In this document: piece by piece, positions 9,112-25,804 of the stretch
How positions within the stretch are numbered: position 1 is the first letter of the stretch
Layout: every line of letters begins with the position of its first letter
From: an uncultured Pseudomonadales bacterium
GTDB lineage: Bacteria; Pseudomonadota; Gammaproteobacteria; Pseudomonadales; Azotimanducaceae
Reading direction: 5' to 3'
Assembly (NCBI GenBank): GCA_951813295.1
Contig: CATOTI010000001.1
Coordinates: forward strand, 1-64,000
Length of the DNA: 64,000 nt
Translations under genes and position numbers: made by a program
The notes under the pieces: model-generated
Database searches by the model: none
The model's input: the letters and a program-made list of their open reading frames with translations, nothing else
Told to the model about the DNA's origin: nothing

Positions 9112-9798
9112 ATGGCAAAACTCAAAGCGCATATCGGCTTCGTTTCTGATCAACCCTTGCCGAACATTTTGCCGATGCTGCATGAGGGCATGAAACCGGA
9201 AAAGGTCTATCTGCTGTGCAGCGATCAGCAACGAGACAAAGGCAATGGCAAAGCCCAGCGCGACGTGATTCAACAAATGGGTGTTGCCGTGGAACTTGTG
9301 CGGGTCGCGGATGCCTTCTGTTTGCAAGGTATTGAAGATGCCGTAGACGGGCTAATCAACAAACACAGTCCCCACGAAGTCGTATTCAACGCCACCGGCG
9401 GCACCAAGCCGATGAGTATTGCCGCGTTCGAACAATGTTCGTGTCGCGGCGTTGGTGTGTTCTACGTGCAAACGCCCGAAATTGTCTGGCTGAACCCAAC
9501 TGGCAATGAAAATAGCGAAAAGATCGTGATTGCCGGGTCGCTTCCGCTCCGGCACTTTTTGCAGGCCCATGGCATTGATCTGATCAAAGACGAAAAGTCC
9601 GATATACCCAAATATCTCCGTGACCTGGCCGGCTCTTGGGCTAATAGGGCGGAAAAATACGCCAACGCATACAGTACGCTCAACTATTACGCAGGAGAAG
9701 CGGAAGGAAAGCTGGAGCTGACTATAGACATACGCGAAGACAATAGGCCGAAACATCTAACGGATCTGTTAAGCGAACTTGAGAACGATAAGAGTTGA
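9112..9798 (+). CDS. CARF-domain sensor half of a Card1/Can2-like (DUF1887-type) effector
   Basis: 228 residues. The first ~150 form a Rossmann-like CARF domain: GFVSDQPLPNILPMLHEGMK, then KVYLLCSDQQRD, and the ligand-loop signature VVFNATGGTKPMSIAAFEQ. CARF domains bind the cyclic oligoadenylate made by Cas10. The C-terminal part is a helical/wHTH-like linker ending DLLSELENDKS. In Card1/Can2 proteins the same chain continues into a restriction-endonuclease-like domain; here that domain is in the next frame, overlapping by 4 bp. The start is 40 bp after cas6 with AAGGGATG upstream. Confidence 0.85.
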   Translation: MAKLKAHIGFVSDQPLPNILPMLHEGMKPEKVYLLCSDQQRDKGNGKAQRDVIQQMGVAVELVRVADAFCLQGIEDAVDGLINKHSPHEVVFNATGGTKPMSIAAFEQCSCRGVGVFYVQTPEIVWLNPTGNENSEKIVIAGSLPLRHFLQAHGIDLIKDEKSDIPKYLRDLAGSWANRAEKYANAYSTLNYYAGEAEGKLELTIDIREDNRPKHLTDLLSELENDKS

Positions 9799-10307
9799 TC
9801 AAGTTCATCAAGAAGGACAACCAAGATTCGGAGCAGTACAAATTCAAGGATGAATCCACGCGCCAGTTTGTCAACGGTGGTTGGCTTGAAGCACGGATAT
9901 TCGATGAATTGAAGTCGCTAAGAAACGAATATCGACAAATCGCTGCGAGCGCCCGCAACGTGACCGTCCAACACCGTGCTGGCGCGACCAGAAGTGCGGT
10001 AAGAAACGAACTGGATGTGATCGCGCTGATCCATCACCAAATGTGGGTGTTCGAGTGCAAGACCGGCAGATTCCATCCCAATAGCGGGCGCTCCGACCGG
10101 CGCGGCGGAGAGGACATGGTCTATAAGCTGGCAGGCACTATGAAAAACCTGGGTGGCCTGCGCACCCGGGGCTGTGTGGTGTCGTTCAATCCCCTGAGAG
10201 ATGTAGAGAAGTCTCGTGCCGATCTACTCGACATCGCCGTGATAGACGGTGGCAACCTTGCGAACCTGCGAAGCAAACTCGTCACCACGCTTGGGCTGGC
10301 GTCATAG
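9795..10307 (+). CDS. PD-(D/E)XK nuclease half of the Card1/Can2-like effector
   Basis: 170 residues starting at a TTG that overlaps the CARF gene stop (TTGA). The order TRQFVNGGWLEARIFDEL, then RNELDVIALIHHQMWVFECKTGR, gives the PD-(D/E)XK active site: Asp in NELDV and E-x-K in FECK. This matches the C-terminal nuclease domain of DUF1887/Card1, which degrades ssDNA/ssRNA when cA4 binds its CARF domain. No ATG is available and the frame is closed by TAA only two codons upstream of the TTG. It is either a reinitiated second gene or the product of a frameshift in one ancestral ~398-residue gene. Confidence 0.8.
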   Translation: MIKFIKKDNQDSEQYKFKDESTRQFVNGGWLEARIFDELKSLRNEYRQIAASARNVTVQHRAGATRSAVRNELDVIALIHHQMWVFECKTGRFHPNSGRSDRRGGEDMVYKLAGTMKNLGGLRTRGCVVSFNPLRDVEKSRADLLDIAVIDGGNLANLRSKLVTTLGLAS

Positions 10308-10780: not shown

Positions 10781-11065
10781 ATGCCAGAGCGTCAATGCTA
10801 CTTGTTCGCCTACGATATCCGCGACCCGCAACGGCTCCGCCGTGCGCTCACCGTCCTGAAGGACTACGCCTGGGGCGGTCAGAAGTCTGTGTTCGAGTGT
10901 TTTTTGACGGCAGCGGAGAAGCGCGAACTGTCCGCGCGGATCCGGGCAACGATTGATGAAGATGAAGACAGCCTGCTGGCGGTCAGAGTACCCGCTCCGG
11001 AGCGCATTCAAGGCCTGGGCATTGCCTGCCTGCCCAGGGACGAGCCACTGTTCTATGTTGGGTAA
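10781..11065 (+). CDS. cas2: Cas2, first copy
   Basis: 94 residues. It starts CYLFAYDIRDPQRLRRALTVLKDYAWGGQKSVFECFL, with the Cas2 beta-1 motif YDI and its metal Asp, then the strand carrying SVFEC. The C-terminal ...RDEPLFYVG matches the usual terminal strand. It is the structural dimer of the Cas1-Cas2 integrase. The gene begins a new block 108 bp after csx16 and is followed 23 bp later by cas1, so this is an adaptation operon distinct from the cmr operon. Confidence 0.9.
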   Translation: MPERQCYLFAYDIRDPQRLRRALTVLKDYAWGGQKSVFECFLTAAEKRELSARIRATIDEDEDSLLAVRVPAPERIQGLGIACLPRDEPLFYVG

Positions 11066-11088
11066 AACCATTTCGGGAGAGCAACGCC

Positions 11089-12027
11089 ATGGCCACGCTG
11101 TATATTGACCGTCAAGGCGCTGCGCTCAGTCATGAACGCGGCCGACTGTGGGTTCGCTATGCCGAGGAAAAACAATCGGTTCTGGTGAGGAGCCTGGAAA
11201 GGGTAGTGGTCACCGCAGGATGCACCCTGGACAGCCGAACGCTGCTGATGCTGAGCGAGGCGGACATTCCCATCGTCATTCTGCACCCGCGCAAACAGAC
11301 GGTGAGCTGGTGTGGCGGCTGGCACCACGGCAACACCGCCCGCCGCATCGCGCAATACCAACTGGCCCAGGATACCGCGCTGTGCGCCGAACTGGCCCGG
11401 CAATTGGTCAGGCTGAAACTGATGCGGCAAAGAAGGTTGTTGCGCCACTTGATGCCTCGGTATCCGGCGAAGCGCCGGGCGCTATTTGTCGGCTGCGCCA
11501 GGTTGGCTGAACTGGTCGACACGATTGGCACGCAGCGCATGGATGAAATACGCGGCCTGGAAGGAGCTGGTGCCCGCAGCTACTTCGCTGCCTATTGTCA
11601 GGTTTATCCCGAACGTTTCGATTTTACCAACCGCAACCGCAGACCACCTCGCGACCCGGTCAACGCCTGCCTGTCGCTGGCCTACACACTGTTGACGACC
11701 GACGCCTTGCGTGCGCTGCATGCCAGTGGACTGGACCCGACCATCGGCTTTTACCACCAGCCCGCCTACGGTCGGGCATCGCTTGCCTGTGATCTGGTGG
11801 AAATCGTCAGAACCCAAGCCGACTGCTGTGTTTTGGATATGTTCCGCAAGCAGGTGCTGGACAGCAAGCACTTCAAGCAACGCGATGGTGGTCTGTTTCT
11901 CGACAAAGAAGGCCGCCGTCGCTTTTTCTCCCGCTGGGAGCGGCAGGCCGATTCGCACCGCCGTTTTTTGCACCGGACGGCATCGGCCTGGGCAACCCGG
12001 GTAATCCAGTTGGCGGAGCATTCTTGA
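11089..12027 (+). CDS. cas1: Cas1 integrase, catalytically intact copy
   Basis: 312 residues. The catalytic triad is visible: E158 in RGLEGAGARSYF, H223 in IGFYHQPAYGR and D235 in SLACDLVE. The N-terminal beta domain (ATLYIDRQGAALS...LERVVVTAGCTLDSRTLLML) is normal. Cas1 integrates new spacers at the leader end of the array with Cas2. Its stop overlaps the ATG/TTG region of the next gene, a second Cas1-like protein (4-bp overlap), so both are made together. No reverse transcriptase fusion is present. Confidence 0.93.
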   Translation: MATLYIDRQGAALSHERGRLWVRYAEEKQSVLVRSLERVVVTAGCTLDSRTLLMLSEADIPIVILHPRKQTVSWCGGWHHGNTARRIAQYQLAQDTALCAELARQLVRLKLMRQRRLLRHLMPRYPAKRRALFVGCARLAELVDTIGTQRMDEIRGLEGAGARSYFAAYCQVYPERFDFTNRNRRPPRDPVNACLSLAYTLLTTDALRALHASGLDPTIGFYHQPAYGRASLACDLVEIVRTQADCCVLDMFRKQVLDSKHFKQRDGGLFLDKEGRRRFFSRWERQADSHRRFLHRTASAWATRVIQLAEHS

Positions 12028-12785
12028 GCCGCTGCCTGATGATAGACGCCTGCCAGCCGACTCGCCTACGACTGGATGGGCCATCATTGATGGTGCAGCG
12101 CACGGGTCAAGCCTCGCGACGGTTCCCCCTGCGCCTGTTGCGCCAGGTCGTCGTCACCGGCTCGCAGCTTGACGGCTTGCCTGCGGCCATCGAATGTGCC
12201 GCGCAACAGATCAACGTGTACTTTCTGAACGCCAGCAGTGAAATACGTGCCCAACTGATCGGGTACTTCCCATCCGCTGTCGAATGGAACGAATGGTTCG
12301 ACCAATGCCGTTGGAGCCAATCATGGCTTGGCGTTTACGAAGCCGCCATTGCTCAGTCAGTGCAATGCCTCTGCGTTGAATCCCGGCTGTTTGGGCAGTT
12401 GCGAAACAGTGGCCGCAACCGCTACTACCAACAGACCGCTGCGGCTTTGAAACGCCGCTGGGGAAAATCGGCATATGCCGACGCTCGACAATGGTTGCGC
12501 GGATTTGCCACAGTCACGGCCACCCAGGCCATGCTGGAAACTGGGGTCGCGTCTGGCCACCGTTTCAAAGCACGGCTGCTCCAGGACGCCACGCAACTGC
12601 TTTTTATGGATGCCCTGTTCAACTGCCACCAGGATAACTGCATCGCGCCACCCGATAATGCTCATGGCGCAGGGGTCTATTACCATGCCCGTGCGGAAGT
12701 CTGGCGTTCTCTGCTGACACGCCTCTACATGTCGCTGGAATATCACTTTACCGAAAAAGAAAAACTCGACGGGCTGCGGCCATGA
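12024..12785 (+). CDS. Cas1-like paralogue lacking the catalytic glutamate
   Basis: 253 residues. The N-terminus follows the Cas1 beta-domain plan (TRLRLDGPSLMVQ..., FPLRLLRQVVVTGSQLDG, then INVYFLNASSEIRAQLIG). The helical half is Cas1-like in length and layout. Where Cas1 has RG-x-EG-AA-xYF, this protein has RNSGRNRYYQQTAA, without the metal-binding Glu; a His and Asp may remain in GHRFKARLLQDATQ. It is therefore probably inactive as an integrase. It starts within the cas1 stop (TTG at 12024) and its end overlaps the second cas2 (ATGA at 12782). A structural partner in a heteromeric integrase is plausible but inferred. Confidence 0.72.
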   Translation: MSRCLMIDACQPTRLRLDGPSLMVQRTGQASRRFPLRLLRQVVVTGSQLDGLPAAIECAAQQINVYFLNASSEIRAQLIGYFPSAVEWNEWFDQCRWSQSWLGVYEAAIAQSVQCLCVESRLFGQLRNSGRNRYYQQTAAALKRRWGKSAYADARQWLRGFATVTATQAMLETGVASGHRFKARLLQDATQLLFMDALFNCHQDNCIAPPDNAHGAGVYYHARAEVWRSLLTRLYMSLEYHFTEKEKLDGLRP

Positions 12786-13054
12786 AACGCGATTATCTGG
12801 TGTGCTACGACATTGCTGACCCGAAAAGACTACAGAAAGTGCACCGCCGCGTGGCCAACGAAGCGGAATTCATCCAGCTATCCGTGTATCACTTGTCGGC
12901 GGACCAAGAGTCACTTGAGGCGTTTGTTGCAGCGCTAGATGAGTTGATCGACCAGCATGCCGACGACGTAAGAATATACCCGCTATCCTTAAGCGCCGAA
13001 CTCGAAACATGGGGCAGGGAACGCCGCGTAAACGGGCTATACTTGTTGGAATAG
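12782..13054 (+). CDS. cas2: Cas2, second and divergent copy
   Basis: 90 residues with the Cas2 opening RDYLVCYDIADPKRLQKVHRRVANEAEFIQLSVYHL (about residues 3-38), including YDI with its metal Asp. The product differs strongly from the first Cas2 94-residue protein, so it is not a recent duplicate. It overlaps the Cas1-like paralogue by 4 bp, giving the order cas2-cas1-cas1-like-cas2. The leader and array lie directly downstream. Confidence 0.9.
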   Translation: MKRDYLVCYDIADPKRLQKVHRRVANEAEFIQLSVYHLSADQESLEAFVAALDELIDQHADDVRIYPLSLSAELETWGRERRVNGLYLLE

Positions 13055-13362: not shown

Positions 13363-13918
13363 GTTGGAATCCTTCCCTGATTTAGAAGGGATTAAGACGG
13401 TCGCGCCTCGGCGCGGGCGAGCTCTTCGTCCGGGTTGGAATCCTTCCCTGATTTAGAAGGGATTAAGACAGGGCCATCGCCCTGGCGGCTTCGGGCGTTC
13501 GCCCGAGTTGGAGTTGGAATCCTTCCCTGATTTAGAAGGGATTAAGACCCCCGTTTCGCCGACGACGGACGAGCCGATCTCGATCCGTTGGAATCCTTCC
13601 CTGATTTAGAAGGGATTAAGACCTCTCGACGCCGATGGCGATCGCCTCCCATGCGCATGGCGTTGGAATCCTTCCCTGATTTAGAAGGGATTAAGACCTC
13701 GCTGGCGACGGTCACCGCGCACGATCCGGCCATGTTGGAATCCTTCCCTGATTTAGAAGGGATTAAGACCGAGCGTGGCGTTTCGATAGGCGCGCGCGAC
13801 CGTCGAGAGGTTGGAATCCTTCCCTGATTTAGAAGGGATTAAGACTTACCCGTGCTGAGGTGGAAGCCGCCACGCGCATTACGTTGGAATCCTTCCCTGA
13901 TTTAGAAGGGATTAAGAC
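13363..13918 (+). CRISPR. CRISPR array, 8 identical 36-bp repeats, 7 spacers
   Basis: Repeats start at 13363, 13434, 13513, 13587, 13662, 13734, 13810 and 13883, all 36 bp and identical. The repeat begins GTTGGAATCC, has an imperfect stem (AATCCTTC / GAAGGGATT), and ends ATTAAGAC, the expected 8-nt crRNA 5' handle of type III guides. Spacers are 35, 43, 38, 39, 36, 40 and 37 bp and all are much more GC-rich than the repeat. Even the last repeat shows no decay, which is unusual for a trailer end and suggests that the array was cut off at 13918 by rearrangement. Transcription is on the + strand from the leader. Confidence 0.98.
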
Positions 13919-14186: not shown

Positions 14187-15565
14187 GAGTTATGACTGAA
14201 TCTGGTGTCTGACGGGATTTGAAGTATGCGGCGTGCCTTGTTGAAATCGGTTTTGCCGAACTGATTTTGACAAGAGGAACACGCCACACATGGACAACGA
14301 TAATGTGATTGATCTGGCGATGCCAGAGGAGAAGGACACCCTCACCGCAGTCTTGCGAGAAGGTGCGAGACGACTGCTGGATCAAGCGATCAAAGCGGAA
14401 GTGGAGGAGCTGTTGAGCGGCTACCAGGACGAGGAGACCGAGATCGGTCACCGGCGGGTGGTTCGCAACGGCTATCAGCCTGAGCGGGAGATCTTGACCG
14501 GTATCGGCAAGGTCGCCGTCCAAGTGCCGAAAGTCAGAAGTCGACAAGGCGAGCCAGTCAGCTTTCGGTCGGCACTGGTGCCGCCGTACATCAGGAAAAC
14601 GGCCACGATGGAAGCAGCCATCCCCTGGCTGTACTTGAAGGGTATTTCCACGGGTCAGATGCAAGGGGCTCTGGAAGCGCTGGTGGGTCCGCAAGCGAAG
14701 GGTTTGTCGGCCAACGTCGTCGGCCGCCTCAAGAAACAATGGGAGGCGGAGTATCAGACCTGGTGTCAGCGCTCGGTTGCCGATGACTGGGTCTACATCT
14801 GGGCCGACGGTATCTACAGCGGACTACGCGGTGATGACGGTCGGTTGTGTTGTCTGGTGATTATCGGCGTCAACAGCCGCGGCGATAAGCACTTTCTGGC
14901 GATCGAGGATGGTGTTCGCGAATCGAAGCAAAGCTGGCGGGAAGTGCTGTTATCGCTGCGGCAGCGCGGCATGAGATCGCCAAAACTGGCAATCGGTGAT
15001 GGCGCACTGGGTTTCTGGGCAGCGCTGGAAGAAGTCTATCCGGAGACGACCGTTCAACGCTGCTGGATGCACAAGAGCCAGAACGTGCTGAACTATCTGT
15101 CAAAGGGGACGCAGGACAAAGCCAGAGAGGCGTTGAAGGACATCTGGATGGCGGAAACCAGGGTCGAAGCAGAGACAGCCTTTGACGCGTTCGAGACGCG
15201 ATTTGATGCGAAATATCCGAAAGCGGTCGAGTGCTTGCGCAAGGACCGTGAGAGTCTGCTGGCGTTCTACGACTTCCCTGCCCAACACTGGGTCCACATC
15301 CGCACGACGAATGTGATCGAGTCCAGCTTTGCGACGATCCGACATCGCTCGAGACAGGCCAAAGGCTGCGTCACCCGCAAGACGATGCTGACCATGATCT
15401 TCAAGATGGGCGAATGTGCCGAACGGAACTGGCGCAAACTGAGAGGATTCAAACACCTGGCAAAGGTGATTGACGGAGTCAGATTCCGTGATGGAATCGA
15501 GCAGAGCAAGACCGACAAGGACGCCGCTTCGTCACGTCCTTAGACACCAGATTTGACAATAGCTC
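14187..15565 (+). mobile_element. IS256-family insertion sequence, complete, no target duplication
   Basis: About 1.38 kb bounded by imperfect inverted repeats. The left end GAGTTATGACTGAATCTGGT (from 14187) and the right end, read inward, GAGCTATTGTCAAATCTGGT (from 15565) share GAG, TAT and AATCTGGTGTCT. One transposase gene fills it. The 8 bp outside the left end (CCAGTCGT) do not match those outside the right end (TGGGAAGC), so the usual 8-9-bp target duplication is missing and the flanks are unrelated genes. This suggests recombination between two copies or an IS-driven deletion. Confidence 0.85.
14290..15543 (+). CDS. IS256-family transposase
   Basis: 417 residues, full family length. 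The DDE residues are visible: Asp in YIWADGIYSGLR, Asp in LAIGDGALGFWAAL and Glu in TTNVIESSFATIRHR, and the conserved CWMHKSQNVLNYL lies between them. The ATG at 14290 lies ~100 bp inside the left inverted repeat. The frame is intact, so the element may still move. It separates the CRISPR and methylase debris from the truncated sigma-54 activator. Confidence 0.95.
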   Translation: MDNDNVIDLAMPEEKDTLTAVLREGARRLLDQAIKAEVEELLSGYQDEETEIGHRRVVRNGYQPEREILTGIGKVAVQVPKVRSRQGEPVSFRSALVPPYIRKTATMEAAIPWLYLKGISTGQMQGALEALVGPQAKGLSANVVGRLKKQWEAEYQTWCQRSVADDWVYIWADGIYSGLRGDDGRLCCLVIIGVNSRGDKHFLAIEDGVRESKQSWREVLLSLRQRGMRSPKLAIGDGALGFWAALEEVYPETTVQRCWMHKSQNVLNYLSKGTQDKAREALKDIWMAETRVEAETAFDAFETRFDAKYPKAVECLRKDRESLLAFYDFPAQHWVHIRTTNVIESSFATIRHRSRQAKGCVTRKTMLTMIFKMGECAERNWRKLRGFKHLAKVIDGVRFRDGIEQSKTDKDAASSRP

Positions 15566-16496
15566 TGGGAAGCGACGTGCAGCTTTCGCGGATAAGCTAA
15601 TTCGGCTATCGGCGTTCGACGAGCCGGTCCTCATCACCGGTGCGAGCGGGACGGGAAAGTCAACCCTTGCGCGGTGGATCCACGAGCAATCAGGTCGGTC
15701 GGAAGGACCAGTCGCACGTTGGGGTTGCGGCGAGTTAAATACTCAGCTTGTTGAGGCGACGCTGTTCGGCCACAGCGATCAAGCCTTCACGGGTGCCCAA
15801 CGTGAGGTCGCGGGCATGTTCGAAGCCGTTGACACCGGCACATTGGTTCTGGACGACGTTGACCAGCTGAGCCGTGACAATCAAGCCAAGCTTCTCAACT
15901 TTCTCGACTCGGGCAGTTACCACCGATTGGGGGAAGCTGGCGCCACCCGTCACGCAGACGTCCGCGTGATCATTACCACCAACAAGAACCTGTTGATGCT
16001 CGCCGATTCCGGCGAGTTCCTCCCCGACCTGCTTTATCGCATTCGAAGCTGGTGGATCGGCCTTCCTAGTCTTAGTGAGTGTAGCGCCGGTGTTCCACCG
16101 CTCGCGAACCACCTACTGACCTATTACGACGCGGCTGTCGGCCGCTCATCGAGGCGCTTCGATGAAACGGCCAATCAATTGTTCGGCCTGATGTCATTTC
16201 CCGGCAACGTTCGCGAGTTGAACGACGTTGTTCGTGCAACGTCCACCTATTGCGATTCGGTCGGATTCGTCAGCGCCCGAAACCTCGTCGAGACCCTACG
16301 CGATCATGTATACGGTGGGCTTTCGACCTTCGGCATGACGAAGGCGACAAGACGGAGCCGCGATGGTGCGGTACGTAGGTTTTTGCCTTTGTTGAACTAC
16401 AACGCGCGCCTAACTGCAGTCGTACTGGAGTGCTCGCATCAGACGGTGTACGACGCGGCCCGGCGACTGGGCTTGTTGCCGCGCGCGGAGGGTTAG
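15566..16496 (+). pseudogene. Sigma-54-type AAA+ activator, N-terminal sensor removed by IS256
   Basis: The frame is open from the right end of the IS, so the native start and sensor domain are lost. The remaining ~310 residues have Walker A GASGTGKSTLARW, a GAFTGA-loop equivalent reading DQAFTGAQ (first Gly replaced by Gln), Walker B GTLVLDDVDQLS and the arginine-finger region LYRIRSWWIGLPSL. The end is a Fis-like helix-turn-helix (LTAVVLECSHQTVYDAARRL). Translation could restart at the ATG at 15816, but that would lose Walker A. It lies directly upstream of a perfect sigma-54 promoter, so it was almost certainly the dedicated activator of the next operon. Confidence 0.8.
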
Positions 16497-16618
16497 CGCG
16501 GCGACCGAACGTCTCGCGCTGCGTCAACCTGTCCAATAGCCCAACTCTTGGGCGACTTTGACACGTTCCTCTTGATCCAAAATTACACAACCTATTGATT
16601 CAGTTTAGAAACTACTTT

Positions 16619-16633
16619 TGGCACGAGGTTTGC
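16619..16633 (+). promoter_or_regulatory. Sigma-54 (-24/-12) promoter
   Basis: TGGCACG-N4-TTGC matches the sigma-54 consensus at every conserved position, with GG at 16620-16621 and GC at 16632-16633 exactly 12 bp apart and a T after the GC. The start of transcription would be near 16645, only a few bases before the ATG at 16648, implying an almost leaderless mRNA. It lies between the AAA+ activator and the VWA gene. Confidence 0.8.
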
Positions 16634-16647
16634 TTGCTGATCGTGGC

Positions 16648-17370
16648 ATGTGCGTTCACGTTTCGCGTTCCACCATCTGCCTCTTCGCTGCTCTGGCACT
16701 CGGAGCAGCCCATTCGGTAGAACCAGCCGAAGGTTCGGGGACGCGCCTCGGACGCGACTATTTGCTGTACCTCGATATCTCGGGGTCGATTATCGATGGC
16801 GACAGGGGATCGAACGAAAGCCCCGCCGCCGTTATGAGGCGACAGCTCGATCGCTTACTCACCCAAATTGAGGACTACCGCGTCGATTCACGGATCGACA
16901 CCGTACAGGTTCTAACCTTCGGCTCGTTGGTTAGACCGCTCAACGGTGATTGGCAAGATGCCCTAGCGACCTGGGCCGAGACCCGGCCGTCGGACTTCAC
17001 GAACATCGAAGCTCTGGTCGAGGATCTTGAGGTGCGGATCAATCCGCAAGTCGGTCGCAACGGCGCAATCAGACCAAGGTTCGTGATCATCGCTAGCGAT
17101 TTTATCCATGACTACGAGCCTCTGAACTCGTCGGGAGTCCGGATTGATGTCTGCTCGCGCAACGGCCGAGCGCAGGGGCAGTCGTTCGCAGACCGCGCGC
17201 AAAGTCGCATCGCCAACAAAGTAGCCGCACTAAACCCTGAGACAGTCGAATCCCGCGGCTACGCTTTCAAGACGGCTTTCGCGCTGATGACTTACCCAAC
17301 GAGAAGCCCCTACGGGAGCGACGAGGGGAACGCGTGTTTCGGTCGATTGGCGCAAGAGGCGTTGTCCTAA
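16648..17370 (+). CDS. Exported VWA-domain protein (probably the front half of one longer gene)
   Basis: 240 residues. The ATG at 16648 is chosen because the sigma-54 promoter occupies the in-frame sequence before it. The N-terminus is a signal peptide (STICLFAALALGAAHS). The VWA fold follows: beta-1 with the MIDAS motif YLDISGSI, beta-2 VQVLTFGS, and PRFVIIASDF. A long loop and a helix run to the stop at 17370. The last VWA elements are missing and appear in the next frame (SRIEFNDQDISVAVDNLARAL), so this looks like a chain cut by a 1-nt deletion or joined by a -1 frameshift. VWA domains usually mediate metal-dependent protein contacts. Confidence 0.75.
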   Translation: MCVHVSRSTICLFAALALGAAHSVEPAEGSGTRLGRDYLLYLDISGSIIDGDRGSNESPAAVMRRQLDRLLTQIEDYRVDSRIDTVQVLTFGSLVRPLNGDWQDALATWAETRPSDFTNIEALVEDLEVRINPQVGRNGAIRPRFVIIASDFIHDYEPLNSSGVRIDVCSRNGRAQGQSFADRAQSRIANKVAALNPETVESRGYAFKTAFALMTYPTRSPYGSDEGNACFGRLAQEALS

Positions 17371-19460
17371 ACTCATTCGAGCAAGAATTCAGCACATCAC
17401 GGATTGAGTTCAACGACCAGGACATTTCCGTGGCCGTCGACAATCTCGCTCGAGCACTGCGACAACCCCTCTCCGCCTGTCCTGGGATGACGGAGGGCGA
17501 CATTTGGCCGTTTCCCGAACCTGACAGATTTGATGAACTCTACGTGAAGTTTGCGAACACGAGCTCTAGAACTCAGTATCTTTCAGAACTCGAAATACGG
17601 GTTGACGACACACCGATACGCCGAATCGAAGCCGAACTCCCAATCGGCGCCTCGACCGAGACGGCGCTAATCCCGATACCACTCCAGGACGTCGTCAACC
17701 TGCTTGATCGGGGGAGTCGAGTTCAGGTTGCCCCTATCGAGATCATTGATGGCGTCGAGTTCGAGTCAACCCCTTGCGAAGTCATCTCTCAACGATCGGC
17801 CCCCGCGATAACCGGGTCCTTCTTTGAACTAGAGCCTTTTCGGCTAGGGCTAGAACTTCATGTCGAAGAAGAAGGTCGCCGTACTCCCCCAGATCTTGAG
17901 ATACGCGGTGCCGGTACGATCCGTTTGCCGGAAACGCGCCCCCTCACTAAGGGTCGAAACGAGGTGCTATATCCGCTGGTCGGTATAGCACCGACGCGGG
18001 GGGTCTACGAGCTCCGACTGCATCCAAATCAAAGTTGGCATGTCGTCCACCTCGCAACCGATCCCATCGAGTCCCTTTCGCCAGCAGAGCTCGTTATCCC
18101 AGACACCGCCTCTACACCAGCACTCTTTGAATTGCGCGTGAATCTCCGCACCGGGGGTACCGCACCCAACCAATTGACTGGCGCGTCGATCGCTGGCGGG
18201 GATACCTTCATGCCACGCGCATATACGAATGATCAAGAGCCCGGATCACTCGTTACCATATCACCCGGGCCACCGCAGACCGTCTCCATCGGAATACCGG
18301 CTGCTCAAGCTAGGGAGCTGGCGCGGCAAGCGGACCCGCGCATTCGCTTTACTGACATATCCCAGGCGGGAGAAACTGATGTCCTTGTCATCATCCCGGC
18401 TCCTCGTGTCCAACTCATGGTCGCTGCATCAGATCAGAACCCCGCTATTGATCCCGACCAGCTAATAAATGTCGCCGTCTTAAACAACGCGCCAGTTCCT
18501 ATTCATATTAGTCGATTGGTAGTTGACGAGTCTGAATCAATGCTTCTGACGCCCTTCCAGGCAAGCTCCTGTCTTATCGAAGCTTACGGTAGCAACGATT
18601 GCGCATTCGACCCAGCCAGCATGCGCGACAGACTAAAAAGCAGCAATTGGGTGGTTGCCGTACGCAACCAGTCGGACAACGACTCTTCGACGTTCGATAT
18701 TTCGCGAGGAACGCATACCTTTGTCAGGAATGCGACCCTCAAGCGCCACTCTCTCTACTCAAAAGTTTCCGCAACAGTTGATATCACATCGAAGGACGAC
18801 ATCAAAGCGATCACCGTACAACTACTCGTCCCAACTGGACGGTTATCAGGACCACTCGGGTCCGAAATGCCCGGGGTCCCACTCGGCAACGATCGTTACG
18901 TCGCGGAGTATCGGTCTTCGGACTTCAACTCTGAGCTCGATCGGTTGGACGCGACCTTTAATGAAGTCATCGTTAGTGTTGTTCTAAACGGGGACGGCGG
19001 GTTTGTGCTCAACGCCTACCCGAAATTCGATCAGGTAAACGAAGCAATCATGCTCGTAGTCTATTTGGTTGGTATTGTGATCGCCGTCCTAATTCATGAC
19101 AAACGTCGAGCGACATTCGCGACTTTCTACAGCTTGGCGTTCCCGCTCATATCAGGTGTTGTCGGGGCCGTCGTTCTACTTTCCGGCAACGGCTCCACTG
19201 CGCCGGCATTCCAGATCGGAGTAGCAACTCTGTGTGCGCTTGCGGTGGTAGCAGTTGGAATCGCAACGTGGAGTAAGAATGCTCCATTGATCGAGCTCCG
19301 ACTCGCAAGCCAGGGGGCGTTTTATACGGACGCATTAGATACCGAGACGAGGCGCCTGCAATCAAGACTTGTTTGGTGGGTCTTCGGCGCTGGGACAGGT
19401 GTTTTCGTTGCTGCGTACCATATGCTCGACCTGCAAACCGGCGCCTTTGGGGTTTTCTAA
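17334..19460 (+). CDS. Beta-sandwich-rich membrane protein, four C-terminal TM segments
   Basis: 708 residues from a GTG that lies 37 bp inside the VWA gene. No family is recognised. About 550 residues of beta-strand-rich, cysteine-containing sequence are followed by TM segments near residues 570-590, 598-620, 627-647 and 680-700. It has no signal peptide, yet the long N-terminal part with spaced cysteines looks extracytoplasmic. Reading it as the continuation of the VWA protein supplies both the signal peptide and the end of the VWA fold. Nine bases separate it from the tubulin-like gene. Confidence 0.6.
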   Translation: MFRSIGARGVVLNSFEQEFSTSRIEFNDQDISVAVDNLARALRQPLSACPGMTEGDIWPFPEPDRFDELYVKFANTSSRTQYLSELEIRVDDTPIRRIEAELPIGASTETALIPIPLQDVVNLLDRGSRVQVAPIEIIDGVEFESTPCEVISQRSAPAITGSFFELEPFRLGLELHVEEEGRRTPPDLEIRGAGTIRLPETRPLTKGRNEVLYPLVGIAPTRGVYELRLHPNQSWHVVHLATDPIESLSPAELVIPDTASTPALFELRVNLRTGGTAPNQLTGASIAGGDTFMPRAYTNDQEPGSLVTISPGPPQTVSIGIPAAQARELARQADPRIRFTDISQAGETDVLVIIPAPRVQLMVAASDQNPAIDPDQLINVAVLNNAPVPIHISRLVVDESESMLLTPFQASSCLIEAYGSNDCAFDPASMRDRLKSSNWVVAVRNQSDNDSSTFDISRGTHTFVRNATLKRHSLYSKVSATVDITSKDDIKAITVQLLVPTGRLSGPLGSEMPGVPLGNDRYVAEYRSSDFNSELDRLDATFNEVIVSVVLNGDGGFVLNAYPKFDQVNEAIMLVVYLVGIVIAVLIHDKRRATFATFYSLAFPLISGVVGAVVLLSGNGSTAPAFQIGVATLCALAVVAVGIATWSKNAPLIELRLASQGAFYTDALDTETRRLQSRLVWWVFGAGTGVFVAAYHMLDLQTGAFGVF

Positions 19461-19469
19461 GGACTAAAT

Positions 19470-22400
19470 ATGACTTCGTTTCCTGGGGCGGTACGACGGA
19501 TACCGACACTTTTCGTCGGTGCGGGTGGTACGGGTATAACAACCGCTCGAATAGTCAAAACAATCGGTCGCAAAGCCGATGATTCCGACCTTTTCGAGTC
19601 AATCAGGCGCGGCGCGTTCCAATTCGTTGGGGTTGATACTGATCGAAACGCCAATACCCGAAGGCGAGATTTTGACCCATCAATCATCCCGACCGATTCG
19701 CTCCTAGCAGGTGGCCAGCAAGTCTCGTTCACATCATTGGATCAGCTCGAAGGAGATCAATTCGTCGCGCTGAGTGCTAGATCGATCGCGAATGCACTAA
19801 ACGCGATCAATGCGGACGCGACACTGATTCAAGCCGGTGGGGGACTTTCGGGGTTGCGTCACCCTGAGATTGCGGCCTGGTTCCCCGGGAACAATACACA
19901 CGATCCAAATTCTCACCGTGATACACAGTCGACCGCCCGCATTGGCTACGGTGCTGCCGCGGCCAACGGTGCGGCCCAATGGCGCCCCCTTGGGCGCGTT
20001 GGTCTGTTTCTGTCAGCGGGTGCGATCTTCGCGAAACTGAGGTCTGCGCTTGAGCGAGTCCAGAGCGCGCTTGACAACCAAAGTTCAATCCACGCGCCTC
20101 CTCGGGCATACATCATTTCGTCACTAGCCGGGGGAACTGGAAGTGGGATGTTCTGGGACTTGGCCTATATGTTGCGGACCCTAAATCCGGAGCTCGACAT
20201 TCGAGGAATTTTCCTTCATCCCGCTGCGTTTGACGGATTAGATCAGGCAGGCCGGATCTACGCCAACGGATATGCCGCGATCAAAGAGCTCGTGATGATA
20301 AAAAACTGGACTTGGGACGTTCCACACGAATTCCGTTGGCCCGGTGTACCCGCGACATACATGGCGCAGTCGGGCGCCGCTCCAGCTTTCAATAGCGTGT
20401 ATCTGTTTCCCGGGATTAGTGCCAGTGAGGCAGCGTCAGATATCCATCGGGCACGTGTTGACCTTACATGCCTACGAATGGCCGAAGTATGTCTAGCGCA
20501 AACCCGAGACGATCTCTATGCCGATCTAGATCAAGGTAATGCGAATGAGCGGAGCGATAGCCGAGAACTATCAGGGCAGCCGGGTGCCCGGTATGTTTTC
20601 TCCACGGCTGGCGCCGCGCAGTTTGAATTCCCTGGTGAGGCAGAGATTCAAGCAGCGACCTACCTCGATGCACTTCCAAGGCTGGTCCACGACAACGAAT
20701 CGCCATCGAACGACAAGGACTCGCTCACGTCGCGTCTCAAGGGTGGAGATCCCGTTAGGTTGATCGCAGGAATCGTCGAGTCGATGGACAGAAACCAGGC
20801 CGCGCTCACAAAGTGGGCCGAACAACTGGACGGCCAATCAATTAGTGAAGACCCTGTCCGTCGATTTCAAGAACGGATTCCGCAAATAGTCCGTCGACGT
20901 TGGGCCGACGCCGTAGCTACAGCGGCCACTGCACAACCTACCGACCATGCCTTGTTTTCGCCCGAGGAGCTTCATGGGGATGCGCTGGTCGGTGCCGTAG
21001 AAGAGCTATGCAACGTCGTCTCGCGCCATATCGCCCGGATATCAGAAGACCGCAGCCTTCTATCTCGCGAGGATCGAAAAGCAAGTGAGAAGGTTATTGA
21101 GTGGCTGAACAAGCTACCGCGCGATTCACAGCGCCTTCACAAGATGCTAATCCCGCCGCAATACATCCAGGGATTCAGCGACCTTCAGCGTGCTGCGGTT
21201 CCGCGCCCGTTTCTATTTGGATGGATCTTCCGCATGCTCGATTGGATCGGAAGATTCGGACGGCGACAAATTCTCTCGGATATGGTCGACGAGATAATCC
21301 GATCGACAATGCTGCAAGTGCGCGAAATTGGTGACGCCAAGGCCGACGACGTAACGACTCAACTTTCGCGGAGCTTATCCCGCACTGGCCAATTGGACGT
21401 ACTACTGAGTTCACTCAAACGCGTTGTCGAGATCGATGATAGAAACCGAGAACGTCGACAGCAACTTCGACATGCCATCGACATCGAACGGTCACGCCTC
21501 CAGCTAGATGACACGGGTGAGCGATCGCCGATGCTTCTTGATCACTTGGCATCAATAGGCGAAGAGATTCGTCGACTTACATTGGATGAGATGGCTACGA
21601 AAGATCTTGTCGCAGATGCAGTCGAAATCTGGCAAGACGTTGAAAAACACGTTGAAAGTGGAGTGGCCAACAACCCTAGGTCAGTTTCGCCGAACCCCGC
21701 GTTCTGGCGCGACCTATTCAAGGATGCATCCCCTACCGACGGAAAAACGCTAGTTGAATGCCTAGCCGAAGCGGTAACGAAACGCGTGCCGTTTTTCGAC
21801 ATCGATGACGCAGGCACTATGCTCAGCAATCTCATCGTATGGCGTTCGGTATTCTTCACGGTTTTGCGCGCGTGGACTCGTCGACAAGAGGTCGCGCTTG
21901 CTCGACTTGGAAGCGAAACCGGAATTGAGGGGCGTTTGACCCAAGTCGATACTCCAATCTTCACTAGCGGCTCTTTGACGAACCCGATTTCGATCGACAA
22001 GGTCGTTCTAGTCCCTCCAGAGAGAACCCACATAGCTGTGATGCCACTCGACTTAAACGCCACGCAATCAGTTGAGCGCGCGTTCAAGAATCATGCAGGC
22101 GCGACGCTGCAAACGGAACCCAGCGTCTCGCGAACTGGTAGCGATCTACCGATCCTATACATGGAAAAACGCTCCCGATCCGTGGACGAGATCAAGGGGA
22201 TCGAAGAGCTTCGACGAAGTTACATCGACCTCTCACTCGATGTTCGTCCGCTCTATCATATCCTCCACGGAATCGCCGATGCACCAGACGTCGCGACGGC
22301 ATCGGCGTCCCCTTTCCCTGTGAAGTGCGGCAACGTCGGCTGTGAACGCGACCTCCGATATGACTCACGGATGCTGACCAACTGTGCTGAATGTAGCCAG

Positions 22401-23870
22401 CCGATTTGGAACCGCTGCGGAAATGAACAGTGCGCAGAGGATAACCTTCGAAACCGCTTGCTTAGAGAGAACGGCGGGGTCTTACCGAAACGGCTTCCTA
22501 ATGAATGTCCCGAATGCAACCATGAGTTACTCACCTACTGGTGGCGCTGTGCGCACCACCCCGATATGCCGATTCCCGCAGACAAGTCCAAGTGTCCGAA
22601 CTGCCTTGCGGAATACCAAGCAGGAAATCGGCAGTACAGCACCGTGGCGCAGCGATCGGATGCAGACTCGACCGAGTGTCCCGGATGTGAGCAACTAGGA
22701 GCCCCACAAGCCGAAGTAACGATAATTCCATCGAGTCTACGTAAGTTCTACTTCGACGGCGTGAACGGTCACGACTCGGTGACGTTTCCGGAGCTCGTTC
22801 AGAAGCACAAGCTAAAGCCGCATGAATGCGGGTATCCCGCACACAGGCACTTCCTGTTTCCAACATGCCCTGAGCCATCGGAGGACGGCGCGTATCACAA
22901 CCTTTACCGCGGGCCACATGGGCAGTTCATTTGTCCAAATCACCCGGCCAAGCGATTCTTCAGCTGTTTCCATTGCGATTATCCGATCGATTCAGATGAT
23001 CACAACCTTCGCGCGGACGGGACGACGACTTGTCCGCGATGTCTTCGCGGCATACGAGTGTGTACGTTTTGCACGCCGCAGAACCAGCATTTGTTTGAGC
23101 CGCAGCCACAGGGTTCTAGTCAGCGGTTGCACTGCCCGAACTGCTCCAATCTCGTTAGCCCCATCCGTGATCGTGCAGCAACATTGGATCTCAACGAAGA
23201 TTTTCGACCCGAACGACCGGGGTATTGCCCTAACACGACCGGCTGTGACGCGGGAGCAGCGCCTTGGGACACAGTTGCGAGGTATGACATCGGCACTTGT
23301 CGAATCTGCGACTCTGCGCAGTTGCTGAATCGAAGCGAGTTGGTCGAGAACATCAGTCGCTGCCCGGTATGCGTCTCGGTCTTTGGCACTCCAACGCCGA
23401 CCCAGCGCACGCCGACAACGATCCCGGCCGAACCGGATGATCTACGGGAGCACTTTGATTCGCTCAAAGCGCAACGGCCTTACGCGTTGGAGCGACTGAA
23501 TGAGCGCTGCGAGACGTGTGGAACAATTCCAAGCCGAATGTTGAGCGCAGGCAACATCGCGCTTGATGACGAGGATCTAGATGACGACCGCTTTCCAGCC
23601 GCTGACGCAACGGTCGAGATTGGGTTGCAACCCTTCTCGGTTATTTTTGAGGTTCTCCTTCGTAATCGGGATGATCTGGCGGCGCTTGACGCATTGAAGG
23701 AAATCGAGATTTTTCGTGCACATCGCGGCGATATTCGCGAGCTCATGAGTAAGTTTTTGGACCCGGTCGATACGCAGTCCGCTGCAGGTCGATCGCTGGA
23801 ACGTCGATTCGATGCGGTCGCAGCTCTGCACGAAGAGGAGATGCGACGAGAGTCGGGAGGACGGATGTAG
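19470..23870 (+). CDS. Giant tubulin/FtsZ-fold GTPase-like protein with zinc-ribbon tail
   Basis: 1466 residues. The N-terminus has a nucleotide-binding loop FVGAGGTGITTARIVKTIG (15-33) and the tubulin signature AGGTGSGMFWDLAYML with GGTGSG at 221-226; this matches the prokaryotic Tubulin_2-like family. A helical middle region follows. From about residue 952 to 1350 there are many CxxC/CxxH pairs (for example CGNVGCERD, CAECSQPIW, CPECNHELL, CPNCLAEY, CPRCLRGIRVCTFC, CPNCSNLV, CETCGT), implying a chain of zinc ribbons. A cytoplasmic filament or scaffold that meets the membrane VWA partner is plausible; the function is unknown. ATG at 19470. Confidence 0.75.
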   Translation: MTSFPGAVRRIPTLFVGAGGTGITTARIVKTIGRKADDSDLFESIRRGAFQFVGVDTDRNANTRRRDFDPSIIPTDSLLAGGQQVSFTSLDQLEGDQFVALSARSIANALNAINADATLIQAGGGLSGLRHPEIAAWFPGNNTHDPNSHRDTQSTARIGYGAAAANGAAQWRPLGRVGLFLSAGAIFAKLRSALERVQSALDNQSSIHAPPRAYIISSLAGGTGSGMFWDLAYMLRTLNPELDIRGIFLHPAAFDGLDQAGRIYANGYAAIKELVMIKNWTWDVPHEFRWPGVPATYMAQSGAAPAFNSVYLFPGISASEAASDIHRARVDLTCLRMAEVCLAQTRDDLYADLDQGNANERSDSRELSGQPGARYVFSTAGAAQFEFPGEAEIQAATYLDALPRLVHDNESPSNDKDSLTSRLKGGDPVRLIAGIVESMDRNQAALTKWAEQLDGQSISEDPVRRFQERIPQIVRRRWADAVATAATAQPTDHALFSPEELHGDALVGAVEELCNVVSRHIARISEDRSLLSREDRKASEKVIEWLNKLPRDSQRLHKMLIPPQYIQGFSDLQRAAVPRPFLFGWIFRMLDWIGRFGRRQILSDMVDEIIRSTMLQVREIGDAKADDVTTQLSRSLSRTGQLDVLLSSLKRVVEIDDRNRERRQQLRHAIDIERSRLQLDDTGERSPMLLDHLASIGEEIRRLTLDEMATKDLVADAVEIWQDVEKHVESGVANNPRSVSPNPAFWRDLFKDASPTDGKTLVECLAEAVTKRVPFFDIDDAGTMLSNLIVWRSVFFTVLRAWTRRQEVALARLGSETGIEGRLTQVDTPIFTSGSLTNPISIDKVVLVPPERTHIAVMPLDLNATQSVERAFKNHAGATLQTEPSVSRTGSDLPILYMEKRSRSVDEIKGIEELRRSYIDLSLDVRPLYHILHGIADAPDVATASASPFPVKCGNVGCERDLRYDSRMLTNCAECSQPIWNRCGNEQCAEDNLRNRLLRENGGVLPKRLPNECPECNHELLTYWWRCAHHPDMPIPADKSKCPNCLAEYQAGNRQYSTVAQRSDADSTECPGCEQLGAPQAEVTIIPSSLRKFYFDGVNGHDSVTFPELVQKHKLKPHECGYPAHRHFLFPTCPEPSEDGAYHNLYRGPHGQFICPNHPAKRFFSCFHCDYPIDSDDHNLRADGTTTCPRCLRGIRVCTFCTPQNQHLFEPQPQGSSQRLHCPNCSNLVSPIRDRAATLDLNEDFRPERPGYCPNTTGCDAGAAPWDTVARYDIGTCRICDSAQLLNRSELVENISRCPVCVSVFGTPTPTQRTPTTIPAEPDDLREHFDSLKAQRPYALERLNERCETCGTIPSRMLSAGNIALDDEDLDDDRFPAADATVEIGLQPFSVIFEVLLRNRDDLAALDALKEIEIFRAHRGDIRELMSKFLDPVDTQSAAGRSLERRFDAVAALHEEEMRRESGGRM

Positions 23871-24290: not shown

Positions 24291-24578
<288 letters not shown>

Positions 24579-24618
24579 TGACCCAGTGACCTGCCCGACT
24601 TTTTCGGTCCATTTGGAA

Positions 24619-25464
24619 CTAGAGGATGGCGGTTGAAATTGCCTCCTGGGGCAACTGGTTGATGAACTCGTTGGGGGTGAGATAGCCGAGGCTCGAATGC
24701 GGCCTGACAGCGTTGTAGTCGCGTCGCCACTGCTCGATCAGGATGCAAGCTTCGCGACGGGTGCGGAACCATTCCACATTCAAGCACTCGTCGCGAAACT
24801 TGCCGTTGAAGCTCTCGTTGATGCCGTTCTGCCAGGGTTTGCCGGGCTCGATGAACGCGGTGTCGATGCCCACCTGTCGTAGCCATCGTCGAACCGCAGC
24901 AGCAACGAACTCCGGACCGTGGTCCGAGCGAATGGCACGAGGTGCACCGTGCAGGCTCATCAGTCGGCTGAGCTCGGCAATGACCTGGCCCGATCGCAGT
25001 CGTCCGGCAACATGGATCGACAGACACGCGTGAGTGAACTCGTCGACGACCGTCAGGCACTTGAGTATCTGACCATTGGCACAACGGTCGAACACGAAGT
25101 CGATCGCCCAGAGGTCGTTGGCACGGGTTGCCGGGCGTGGCCTCGGTTGCGACGCCAAACGCCGCCTAGGGCGCTTCTTTGGCACTTGCAGCGCGGCTTT
25201 GCGCCACAAGCGATACGTTCGGTCAGAGCTCATCGGGTAGCCCTCGCGATCCATGAGCACCTGGATACGGCGGTAGCCGAAGCGCGGACGGCGCGCCGCC
25301 AGGCGCTTCATCACGGCGAGAATCGGCGCATCCTTGACCTCGAGACGCGATCGGTAGGCAAGCGTCGATCGCGACAACGAGACGAGTCGACAAGCCCGTC
25401 GCTGCGACAGACCACGGCGCATCGCGTACGCCGCTTGCTGCCGTCGAACGCGGGCGCTCACCAT
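24619..25464 (-). CDS. IS3-family OrfB (DDE transposase)
   Basis: 281 residues with an integrase core: Asp in LWAIDFVFDRCANG, Asp in AIRSDHGPEFVA and Glu in WQNGINESFNGKFRDECLN, 35 residues after the second Asp as in DD(35)E enzymes. An HTH_21-like N-terminal region (RRPRFGYRRIQVLMDREG) is present. It begins in the -1 frame at the A7 slip site inside orfA and is probably made as a fusion. The frame is intact, so the element may be active. Confidence 0.93.
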   Translation of the reverse strand: MVSARVRRQQAAYAMRRGLSQRRACRLVSLSRSTLAYRSRLEVKDAPILAVMKRLAARRPRFGYRRIQVLMDREGYPMSSDRTYRLWRKAALQVPKKRPRRRLASQPRPRPATRANDLWAIDFVFDRCANGQILKCLTVVDEFTHACLSIHVAGRLRSGQVIAELSRLMSLHGAPRAIRSDHGPEFVAAAVRRWLRQVGIDTAFIEPGKPWQNGINESFNGKFRDECLNVEWFRTRREACILIEQWRRDYNAVRPHSSLGYLTPNEFINQLPQEAISTAIL

Positions 25465-25749
25465 TTTTTTGCCTGGATCTCCTTCATGATCTCTACTTCG
25501 AGATCACGCTCCGCCAACAGCTTCTTCAGCCGGGCGTTCTCTTGTTCGAGTTGCTTAAGCTTGCGCACGTCGTTGACGTCGCCGCCCCCGTACTTCTTGC
25601 GCCAGGCATAGATCGTTTGATCGCTGACCCCGTGGCGCTTGGCGACCTTCGGAACGGACTCCCGATCCGTCTCCCTGAGGATCCGAACCATCTGCTCTTC
25701 CGTGAATCGACTCTTCTTCATGACTTCCTCCGTCGGAAGCCATCCTCTC
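24620..25749 (-). mobile_element. IS3-family insertion sequence, apparently complete
   Basis: About 1.13 kb with short terminal inverted repeats (AGAGGATGG at the left end; the same on the minus strand at the right end). The trinucleotide AAC stands directly outside each end (24617-24619 and 25750-25752), a likely 3-bp target duplication as made by IS3 elements. orfA and orfB lie on the minus strand and overlap at an A7 frameshift site. Exact ends are by eye. Confidence 0.8.
25458..25721 (-). CDS. IS3-family OrfA (helix-turn-helix)
   Basis: 87 residues starting MKKSRFTEEQMVRILRE; the HTH is KVAKRHGVSDQTIYAWRKKYGG and a leucine-zipper-like segment LKQLEQENARLKKLLAERD follows. It ends EIQAKKW just past a run of seven A on the coding strand (25464-25470), the typical A-AAA-AAA slip site at which a -1 frameshift gives the OrfAB transposase. 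An in-frame upstream extension to 25751 crosses the IS end and is rejected. Confidence 0.92.
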   Translation of the reverse strand: MKKSRFTEEQMVRILRETDRESVPKVAKRHGVSDQTIYAWRKKYGGGDVNDVRKLKQLEQENARLKKLLAERDLEVEIMKEIQAKKW

Positions 25750-25804
25750 AACTATCCTGCGGTCCGAAAATCACCTAGCAGGTCACCCGCGCTCATCCAT
25801 CTCC

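Follow-up and report, generated by a model that had tools for sequence, protein, structure and literature searches.

Among described systems, the closest to the locus analysed here is the FtsZl1-VWA module, in which a tubulin-like protein of the FtsZl1 type (Tubulin_2, PF13809) is paired with a von Willebrand factor A (VWA) protein and for which membrane remodelling has been proposed (Makarova & Koonin 2010, PMC2875224). A partial parallel is offered by PspF, an activator without a cis sensor domain that is controlled in trans by PspA on inner-membrane stress (PMC3791423), and another by the GTPase-centred GAP1-N2 systems, which also bring together tubulin-domain genes and genes for VWA and transmembrane (TM) proteins (Kaur et al. 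2020, PMC7159879). Here we survey a three-gene set (activator, VWA/membrane protein and tubulin-like protein) in a 64,000-nucleotide stretch, the window, of contig CATOTI010000001.1 from an uncultured Pseudomonadales bacterium. The reading we favour, and hold to be reasonably probable, is that of a degraded copy of a rare FtsZl1-VWA membrane module variant endowed with its own sigma-54-type switch and turned on in the manner of PspF and PspA.

Similar to the published module, the window combines a Tubulin_2 domain with a neighbouring exported/membrane VWA gene containing a MIDAS-like (metal-ion-dependent adhesion site) loop, and since it has been published, the VWA and Tubulin_2 pairing is not new. 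By contrast, the module as presented in PMC2875224 features an FtsZl1 with a coiled coil and a helical domain in place of a long tail with 11 CxxC motifs, includes GTPase, OmpA or kinase genes that are absent from the three-gene stretch of the window, and comes without the dedicated short sigma-54-type activator found here; a word search of that paper's main text for 'zinc', 'sigma', 'transcription' and 'enhancer' gave none of these terms. No description of an FtsZl1-VWA module with a sigma-54-type activator was found in open-licence full texts, and it is this variant that is new, together with the Tubulin_2 subfamily defined by the 11-CxxC tail. The initial annotation spoke of an uncharacterised system, which is right in that no experimental study of the function of FtsZl1, described in 2010, was found in open-licence full texts, but not in that the VWA and tubulin pairing is published (PMC2875224). 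The features of the set are as follows.

15564..16496, + strand: 5'-truncated, sensor-less AAA+ enhancer-binding protein with the Sigma54_activat AAA+ domain (Pfam PF00158, 1.6e-44) and a C-terminal helix-turn-helix (HTH)-like segment
16618..16634, + strand: -24/-12 (sigma-54-type) promoter TTGGCACGAGGTTTGCT, ending 13 nt before ATG 16648
16648..17370, + strand: VWA protein, N-terminal piece, with signal peptide, VWA-type region, MIDAS-like DISGS and ASDFIHD; ends at a stop
17334..19460, + strand: VWA protein, C-terminal piece in another frame, with ectodomain and three predicted TM segments
19470..23870, + strand: Tubulin_2 (FtsZl1-type) protein of 1466 aa, frame intact (PF13809, 1.2e-36), with full-length homologues
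19470..20732, + strand: tubulin/FtsZ GTPase domain with SLAGGTGSG loop at residues 218-226 (AlphaFold, Foldseek)
22326..23522, + strand: Cys-rich tail with 11 CxxC, conserved in the subfamily; presumed zinc ribbons

All three genes run in the same direction with tight spacing, as the initial annotation had reported. The triad of an exported VWA protein, a short sensor-less sigma-54-type activator and a long-tail tubulin recurs in 4/4 long-tail loci found, and in 3/3 when the window is left out.

Magnetococcales contig (G185:C188/L009/L011): activator, VWA, tubulin, the order of the window
Azospirillum brasilense p1 (L005): VWA, tubulin, activator
Acidobacteriota MO_135.B14 (G747; L010/L024/L025): VWA, tubulin, VWA, tubulin, tubulin, with small open reading frames (ORFs) and the activator on the other strand

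The Acidobacteriota activator is separated from the last tubulin gene by about 2.6 kb and lies on the opposite strand. In the array itself (L010 10004 to L024 2057), long-tail Tubulin_2 is represented by three paralogues, arranged in tandem with two VWA genes.

Relatives were found in 1/129 genomes of the order (the window's own), 4/369 genomes of the class (its own plus three weak partial matches) and 3/398 genomes of the phylum (its own, G185 and G345, the last a weak partial match). The search of the Acidobacteriota phylum matched 17/396 genomes, with the whole model matched by G747 only, and that of the class of G185 matched 1/48. These genome samples overlap, and plasmids, phages, viral contigs and genome contigs were searched too. 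A pattern scan of genome contigs returned nothing with the window protein alone and two loci with a three-row alignment. Viral or phage origin was considered and rejected: tblastn of the window tubulin against 50,697 phage records gave no match, and a pattern-limited scan of viral contigs gave no relatives.

Among 20 generic Tubulin_2 loci, an adjacent VWA-like motif is present in 15/20 and an activator in 1/20, the latter an ordinary protein of 493 aa. The proposal that VWA and activator genes travel with the tubulin-like protein thus survives in restricted form: the triad is real yet confined to a rare variant, since the activator accompanies 4/4 long-tail loci and only 1/20 generic ones. 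The 20 counted loci comprise 19 from the Acidobacteriota phylum search and one from the class search (generic places amounted to 19 in the former, 3 in the class search and 1 in the search of the window's own phylum), with G345 (L003/L008), G611 (L014) and G560 (L015) left out of the count. The VWA test was a motif, D-x-[ST]-x-[ST] preceded by a hydrophobic segment, in an open frame of at least 150 codons at most 1 kb away on the same strand; it is present in 16/73 frames beside the tubulin gene, vs 0/55 beside it on the opposite strand and 10/333 elsewhere. In three of the 5/20 loci without the motif (L048, L050, L061, L063 and L067), namely L048, L050 and L063, the tubulin gene lies within 600 bases of a contig end or runs off it. 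Searches for an activator extended up to about 7.8 kb on the upstream side of the tubulin gene and 6.5 kb on its downstream side, such that a farther activator would be missed. Two genomes from the Acidobacteriota search encode Tubulin_2 proteins with a different, shorter 8-CxxC tail (L053 7453-11430 and L054 4809-8768), with a VWA-like gene and another Cys-rich protein alongside; their tails did not match the long-tail model (E up to 10), and their flanking frames (L053, L054, L110-L113) did not match the activator model.

The activators of the four loci are connected by phylogeny: in a tree that also included 21 ordinary activators (from the Acidobacteriota genome G747, 15 of its 49 others; 5 from the window's own genome and 1 from L062), the four triad activators form one clade with 100/100 support, with a tool warning that two long branches meet inside this four-member group. 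The model that retrieved the Acidobacteriota member had been built without it, and this member was by far the best of 50 matches in its genome (1.1e-95 vs 1.9e-64). A clade search of the 398 phylum genomes (E 1e-78; scoring limited to the five leading first-look candidates of each genome) retrieved two triad genomes alone, both already in the model. Intact relatives are 340-348 aa long and have no N-terminal sensor domain (n=3). Pfam identified Sigma54_activat in both the Azospirillum and Magnetococcales proteins, and HTH_8 above its cut-off in the former and below it in the latter; HTH_8 is not among the 25 Pfam matches listed for the window. The sigma-54-type AAA+ domain of the window gene was confirmed, although the frame is 5'-truncated: the positions of Walker A and the GAFTGA loop both precede its first ATG/GTG/TTG, at 15816, and in the alignment the three relatives have 24, 29 and 32 residues, own starts included, ahead of the first aligned residue of the window. 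The gene for sigma-54 itself, rpoN, was found in 3/3 genomes searched.

The AAA+ and HTH parts of the window activator can also be aligned with RtcR_PspF2 of PADLOC (5.3e-63, 212 bits), the model for the RtcR/CARF-type bacterial enhancer-binding protein (bEBP). This match is generic, because ordinary activators fit the model much better: 232/249 genomes hold a match at E 1e-85 or below, and the best in the window's own genome reaches 1.1e-109. Unlike RtcR, the proteins described here include no CARF domain, for which the three intact relatives have no room (the N-terminus of the window protein is lost), and a CARF/RtcR origin of the activator was accordingly rejected.

Promoter elements complement these observations. 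The activator stop and ATG 16648 are separated by 151 bases, within which the perfect -24/-12 promoter of the initial annotation was confirmed at all 13/13 specified positions. The exact pattern occurs 6 times genome-wide, and the reversed control likewise 6 times, so that the match alone is not special; its position is, with 0/2000 matches when the 150 bases upstream of the start are shuffled at the dinucleotide level. In a scan for GG-N10-GC elements (GG/GC core required, 150 bases before the start; the core statistic was chosen after first scans), the region before the VWA gene scored 13/13 in the window (reached by 0/2000 shuffles), 11 in Acidobacteriota (7/2000), 10/13 in Magnetococcales (6/2000) and 9/13 in Azospirillum (124/2000). 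Across 257 upstream regions from triad and generic loci, 20 score at least 9 and 5 score at least 10, and two of these five precede the Acidobacteriota VWA and activator genes. Scores before the activators are 0 in Magnetococcales, 0 in Azospirillum and 10 of 13 in Acidobacteriota.

The frame of the tubulin-like protein is intact. Its Tubulin_2 match scores 127.1 bits vs a Pfam cut-off of 27, and a tubulin fold is supported by Foldseek, for which nearly all of the 50 matches listed with a weak AlphaFold model of residues 1-421 (predicted local distance difference test 57, predicted template modelling score, pTM, 0.66) correspond to CetZ, FtsZ, TubZ and tubulins; the best match is CetZ 3zid at E 1.4e-3, with none at 0.001 or below. 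No T7-type catalytic loop could be assigned with confidence in this protein. Exactly 11 CxxC are found in each of six long-tail proteins (window, Magnetococcales, Azospirillum and three from Acidobacteriota). The tubulin/FtsZ-fold protein of 1466 aa was correctly recognized in the initial annotation. The 'zinc ribbons' of the tail are putative, being read from Cys patterns; a structure model of the tail (pTM 0.33) was unusable.

The VWA protein, initially described as exported with four TM segments, does have a signal peptide, DISGS and TM segments, but is spread over two frames rather than one, with the frame change between about 17338 and 17372, and by a hydropathy cut-off the C-terminal window piece has three TM segments, not four. 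Both parts form a single ORF in the relatives. Pfam VWA_2 matches the window at E 0.2 only and none of the relatives, and the putative VWA assignment draws on the MIDAS-like DISGS, on a signature 'SDF[VI]H' shared across the VWA proteins (AGDFVHD in one relative) and on weak matches by BLAST (1e-06 and 0.003, with two subject sequences). The DxSxS-like motif reads DISGS in the window and DRTGS, DNSKT, DNSLT or DYSSS in the relatives, with Thr replacing Ser in some. The VWA part is predicted to lie outside the inner membrane.

In the window, this module looks damaged: the activator has no start and the VWA protein is split. Because of these two lesions, the native activator can probably no longer induce the system, and this copy of the module is probably dead, which makes it less telling in itself and leaves the value of the family unaffected.

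Co-occurrence of the three genes, the activator clade, domain content and promoter elements are established at the level of sequence comparison. Under the favoured reading, the short activator would turn on the VWA and tubulin genes at the sigma-54 promoter. As the activator has no sensor domain, its control would fall to another protein that holds or releases it, as PspA does PspF, which likewise is a case of an activator without a cis sensor domain (PMC3791423). The controller may be the VWA or the tubulin-like protein, which are the sole partners that the four loci share. The role of the VWA ectodomain would be to sense or bind something beyond the inner membrane; assembly of the tubulin-like protein on the inner face would serve to remodel or brace the envelope. 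The triad, present in bacteria that are only distantly related, offers a hint as to how one class of bacterial tubulin-like machines gets switched on, and it would tie a tubulin-family protein to a transcriptional switch of its own. This activator also provides a handle: once the inducer of the promoter is identified, the trigger of the machine is known. The module is testable, because the plasmid record is complete for one carrier, the soil bacterium Azospirillum brasilense (MTCC4039), which has intact frames on p1.

A more specific version can be envisioned, tentative at best, in which the module is a tubulin-based counterpart of the phage-shock response. Here, a tubulin-like scaffold would keep the sensor-less activator inactive through its Cys tail; the periplasmic VWA protein or membrane damage would recruit the scaffold to the membrane; and the activator, freed by this recruitment, would drive production of more VWA protein and scaffold from the sigma-54 promoter. 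PspA is ESCRT-III-like and, should this version be true, one and the same feedback would have arisen independently around PspA and around the tubulin-like scaffold.

Several points weigh against the favoured reading of a sigma-54-switched FtsZl1-VWA variant. Only four long-tail loci are available, the window being one of them. The Azospirillum VWA element is not significant, in contrast to those of the other three loci, and the activators of Magnetococcales and Azospirillum have no GG/GC-core element within the 150 bases upstream of them. Given the usual distance from promoter to start point, use of the window promoter would leave a leader of just a few bases ahead of ATG 16648, which would be odd. 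The VWA frame break could be an assembly error, the source assembly consisting of 3 contigs with an estimated (by tool) completeness of 98.6% and contamination of 7.4%. The regulator, filaments, zinc binding and envelope role are all inferred. Finally, key activator motifs are altered: GAFTGA reads QAFTGA, GGFTGA, DAYTSS and DAYTSS in the four activators (QAFTGA in the window), and the Walker B Glu is lost, with DD or ND in 4/4 (LDD for LDE in the window) vs DE in 21/21 ordinary activators. PspF, by contrast, keeps both GAFTGA and the Walker B Glu.

This last point sustains the rival that survives best, which we regard as rather unlikely: the bEBP-derived protein would be a sigma-70-acting or ATPase-weak DNA-binding regulator, or else would act with the VWA protein as its AAA+ partner, in MoxR-VWA style. 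Beyond the replaced Glu, exact GAFTGA is found in 0/4 of the clade vs 12/21 ordinary activators, the first R-finger Arg is missing in 2/4 and present in 21/21, respectively, and NtrC proteins without GAFTGA can act at sigma-70 promoters (PMC10274813), an observation that counts against sigma-54 control as well. Conversely, the HTH-like segment can be aligned in 4/4 activators and the [FY]-T loop pair is retained in 4/4, GG-N10-GC elements stand upstream of VWA genes, and the E108D variant of PspF, despite lowered ATPase activity, supported activation on pre-opened DNA (PMC4132715). As for an AAA+ partnership, the predicted location of the VWA part outside the inner membrane would place it away from a cytoplasmic AAA+ ring.

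A second rival, improbable in our estimate, is an antiviral or conflict system in which a sigma-54-induced tubulin/VWA effector beside type III CRISPR is triggered by infection. The window set lies between insertion sequences and beside genes of type III CRISPR with an array of 8 repeats, and tubulin and VWA genes do occur in GTPase-centred conflict systems (PMC7159879). Those GAP1-N2 systems, however, include a TRAFAC GTPase gene, whereas the window has only three genes between transposase genes, none of them for a GTPase, and the available text of PMC7159879 mentions no sigma-54 activator. A PtuA1-like ATPase (L010 171-1502; PADLOC 2.8e-148) lies about 6.6 kb upstream of the Acidobacteriota array, and a RecF-like neighbour in Azospirillum matches mad3 (2.5e-26) and AriA (1.2e-15) of PADLOC, matches that we read as shared RecF/SMC-type ATPase similarity. 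Against this, the VWA and tubulin pieces had no PADLOC match (E up to 1), and neither the phage records (tblastn) nor the pattern-limited scan of viral contigs yielded relatives. The neighbours tested by Pfam were RecF-like, GyrB, acetyltransferase and symporter proteins in Azospirillum and an HrpA-type helicase, a PreP-type peptidase and NeuB in Magnetococcales, the remaining three of ten being a CCG-domain protein, RlmN and the AAA ATPase matching PADLOC PtuA1. With one strong defence-library match among ten relative neighbours and the rest of housekeeping or metabolic appearance, the link to defence or conflict systems raised in the initial annotation was not upheld. No type III CRISPR link appeared among the neighbour genes of relatives examined, where no search aimed at CRISPR was run. 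Conservation of the defence setting is not clear, and a defence role is possible, not favoured.

That an ordinary FtsZl1-VWA operon acquired an unrelated activator next door by chance is very improbable: VWA and Tubulin_2 pairs are common (15/20), as are activator genes (50 matches in one genome), yet the same activator clade occupies 4/4 long-tail loci, against one ordinary activator in 20 generic loci.

Mobile elements surround the window set, which is flanked by an IS256-type element (14199-15553) and by transposase-like frames at 24506-25751 (the latter read by eye).

14290..15543, + strand: IS256/Mutator-type transposase (PF00872, 3e-67), adjoining the truncated activator

Short terminal inverted repeats of this element lie at 14199-14210 and 15542-15553, the right one at the edge of the activator frame, and no target-site duplication was seen by eye. 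G+C content, taken in 2-kb bins, amounts to 0.545-0.572 between 16 and 24 kb vs 0.590-0.645 between 24 and 64 kb. Left of the set are type III CRISPR genes and eight identical repeats with starts from 13363 to 13883. There, a Card1-type effector (9112-10307) is split into two overlapping frames, one with CARF (PF23400, 3.8e-12) and one with the endonuclease (PF09002, 3.6e-22). A second, divergent Cas1-like protein (10781-13054; PF01867 at 1.8e-05 only) follows a normal Cas1 (5.7e-76), and two small Cas2-like frames, recognized by eye, flank it.

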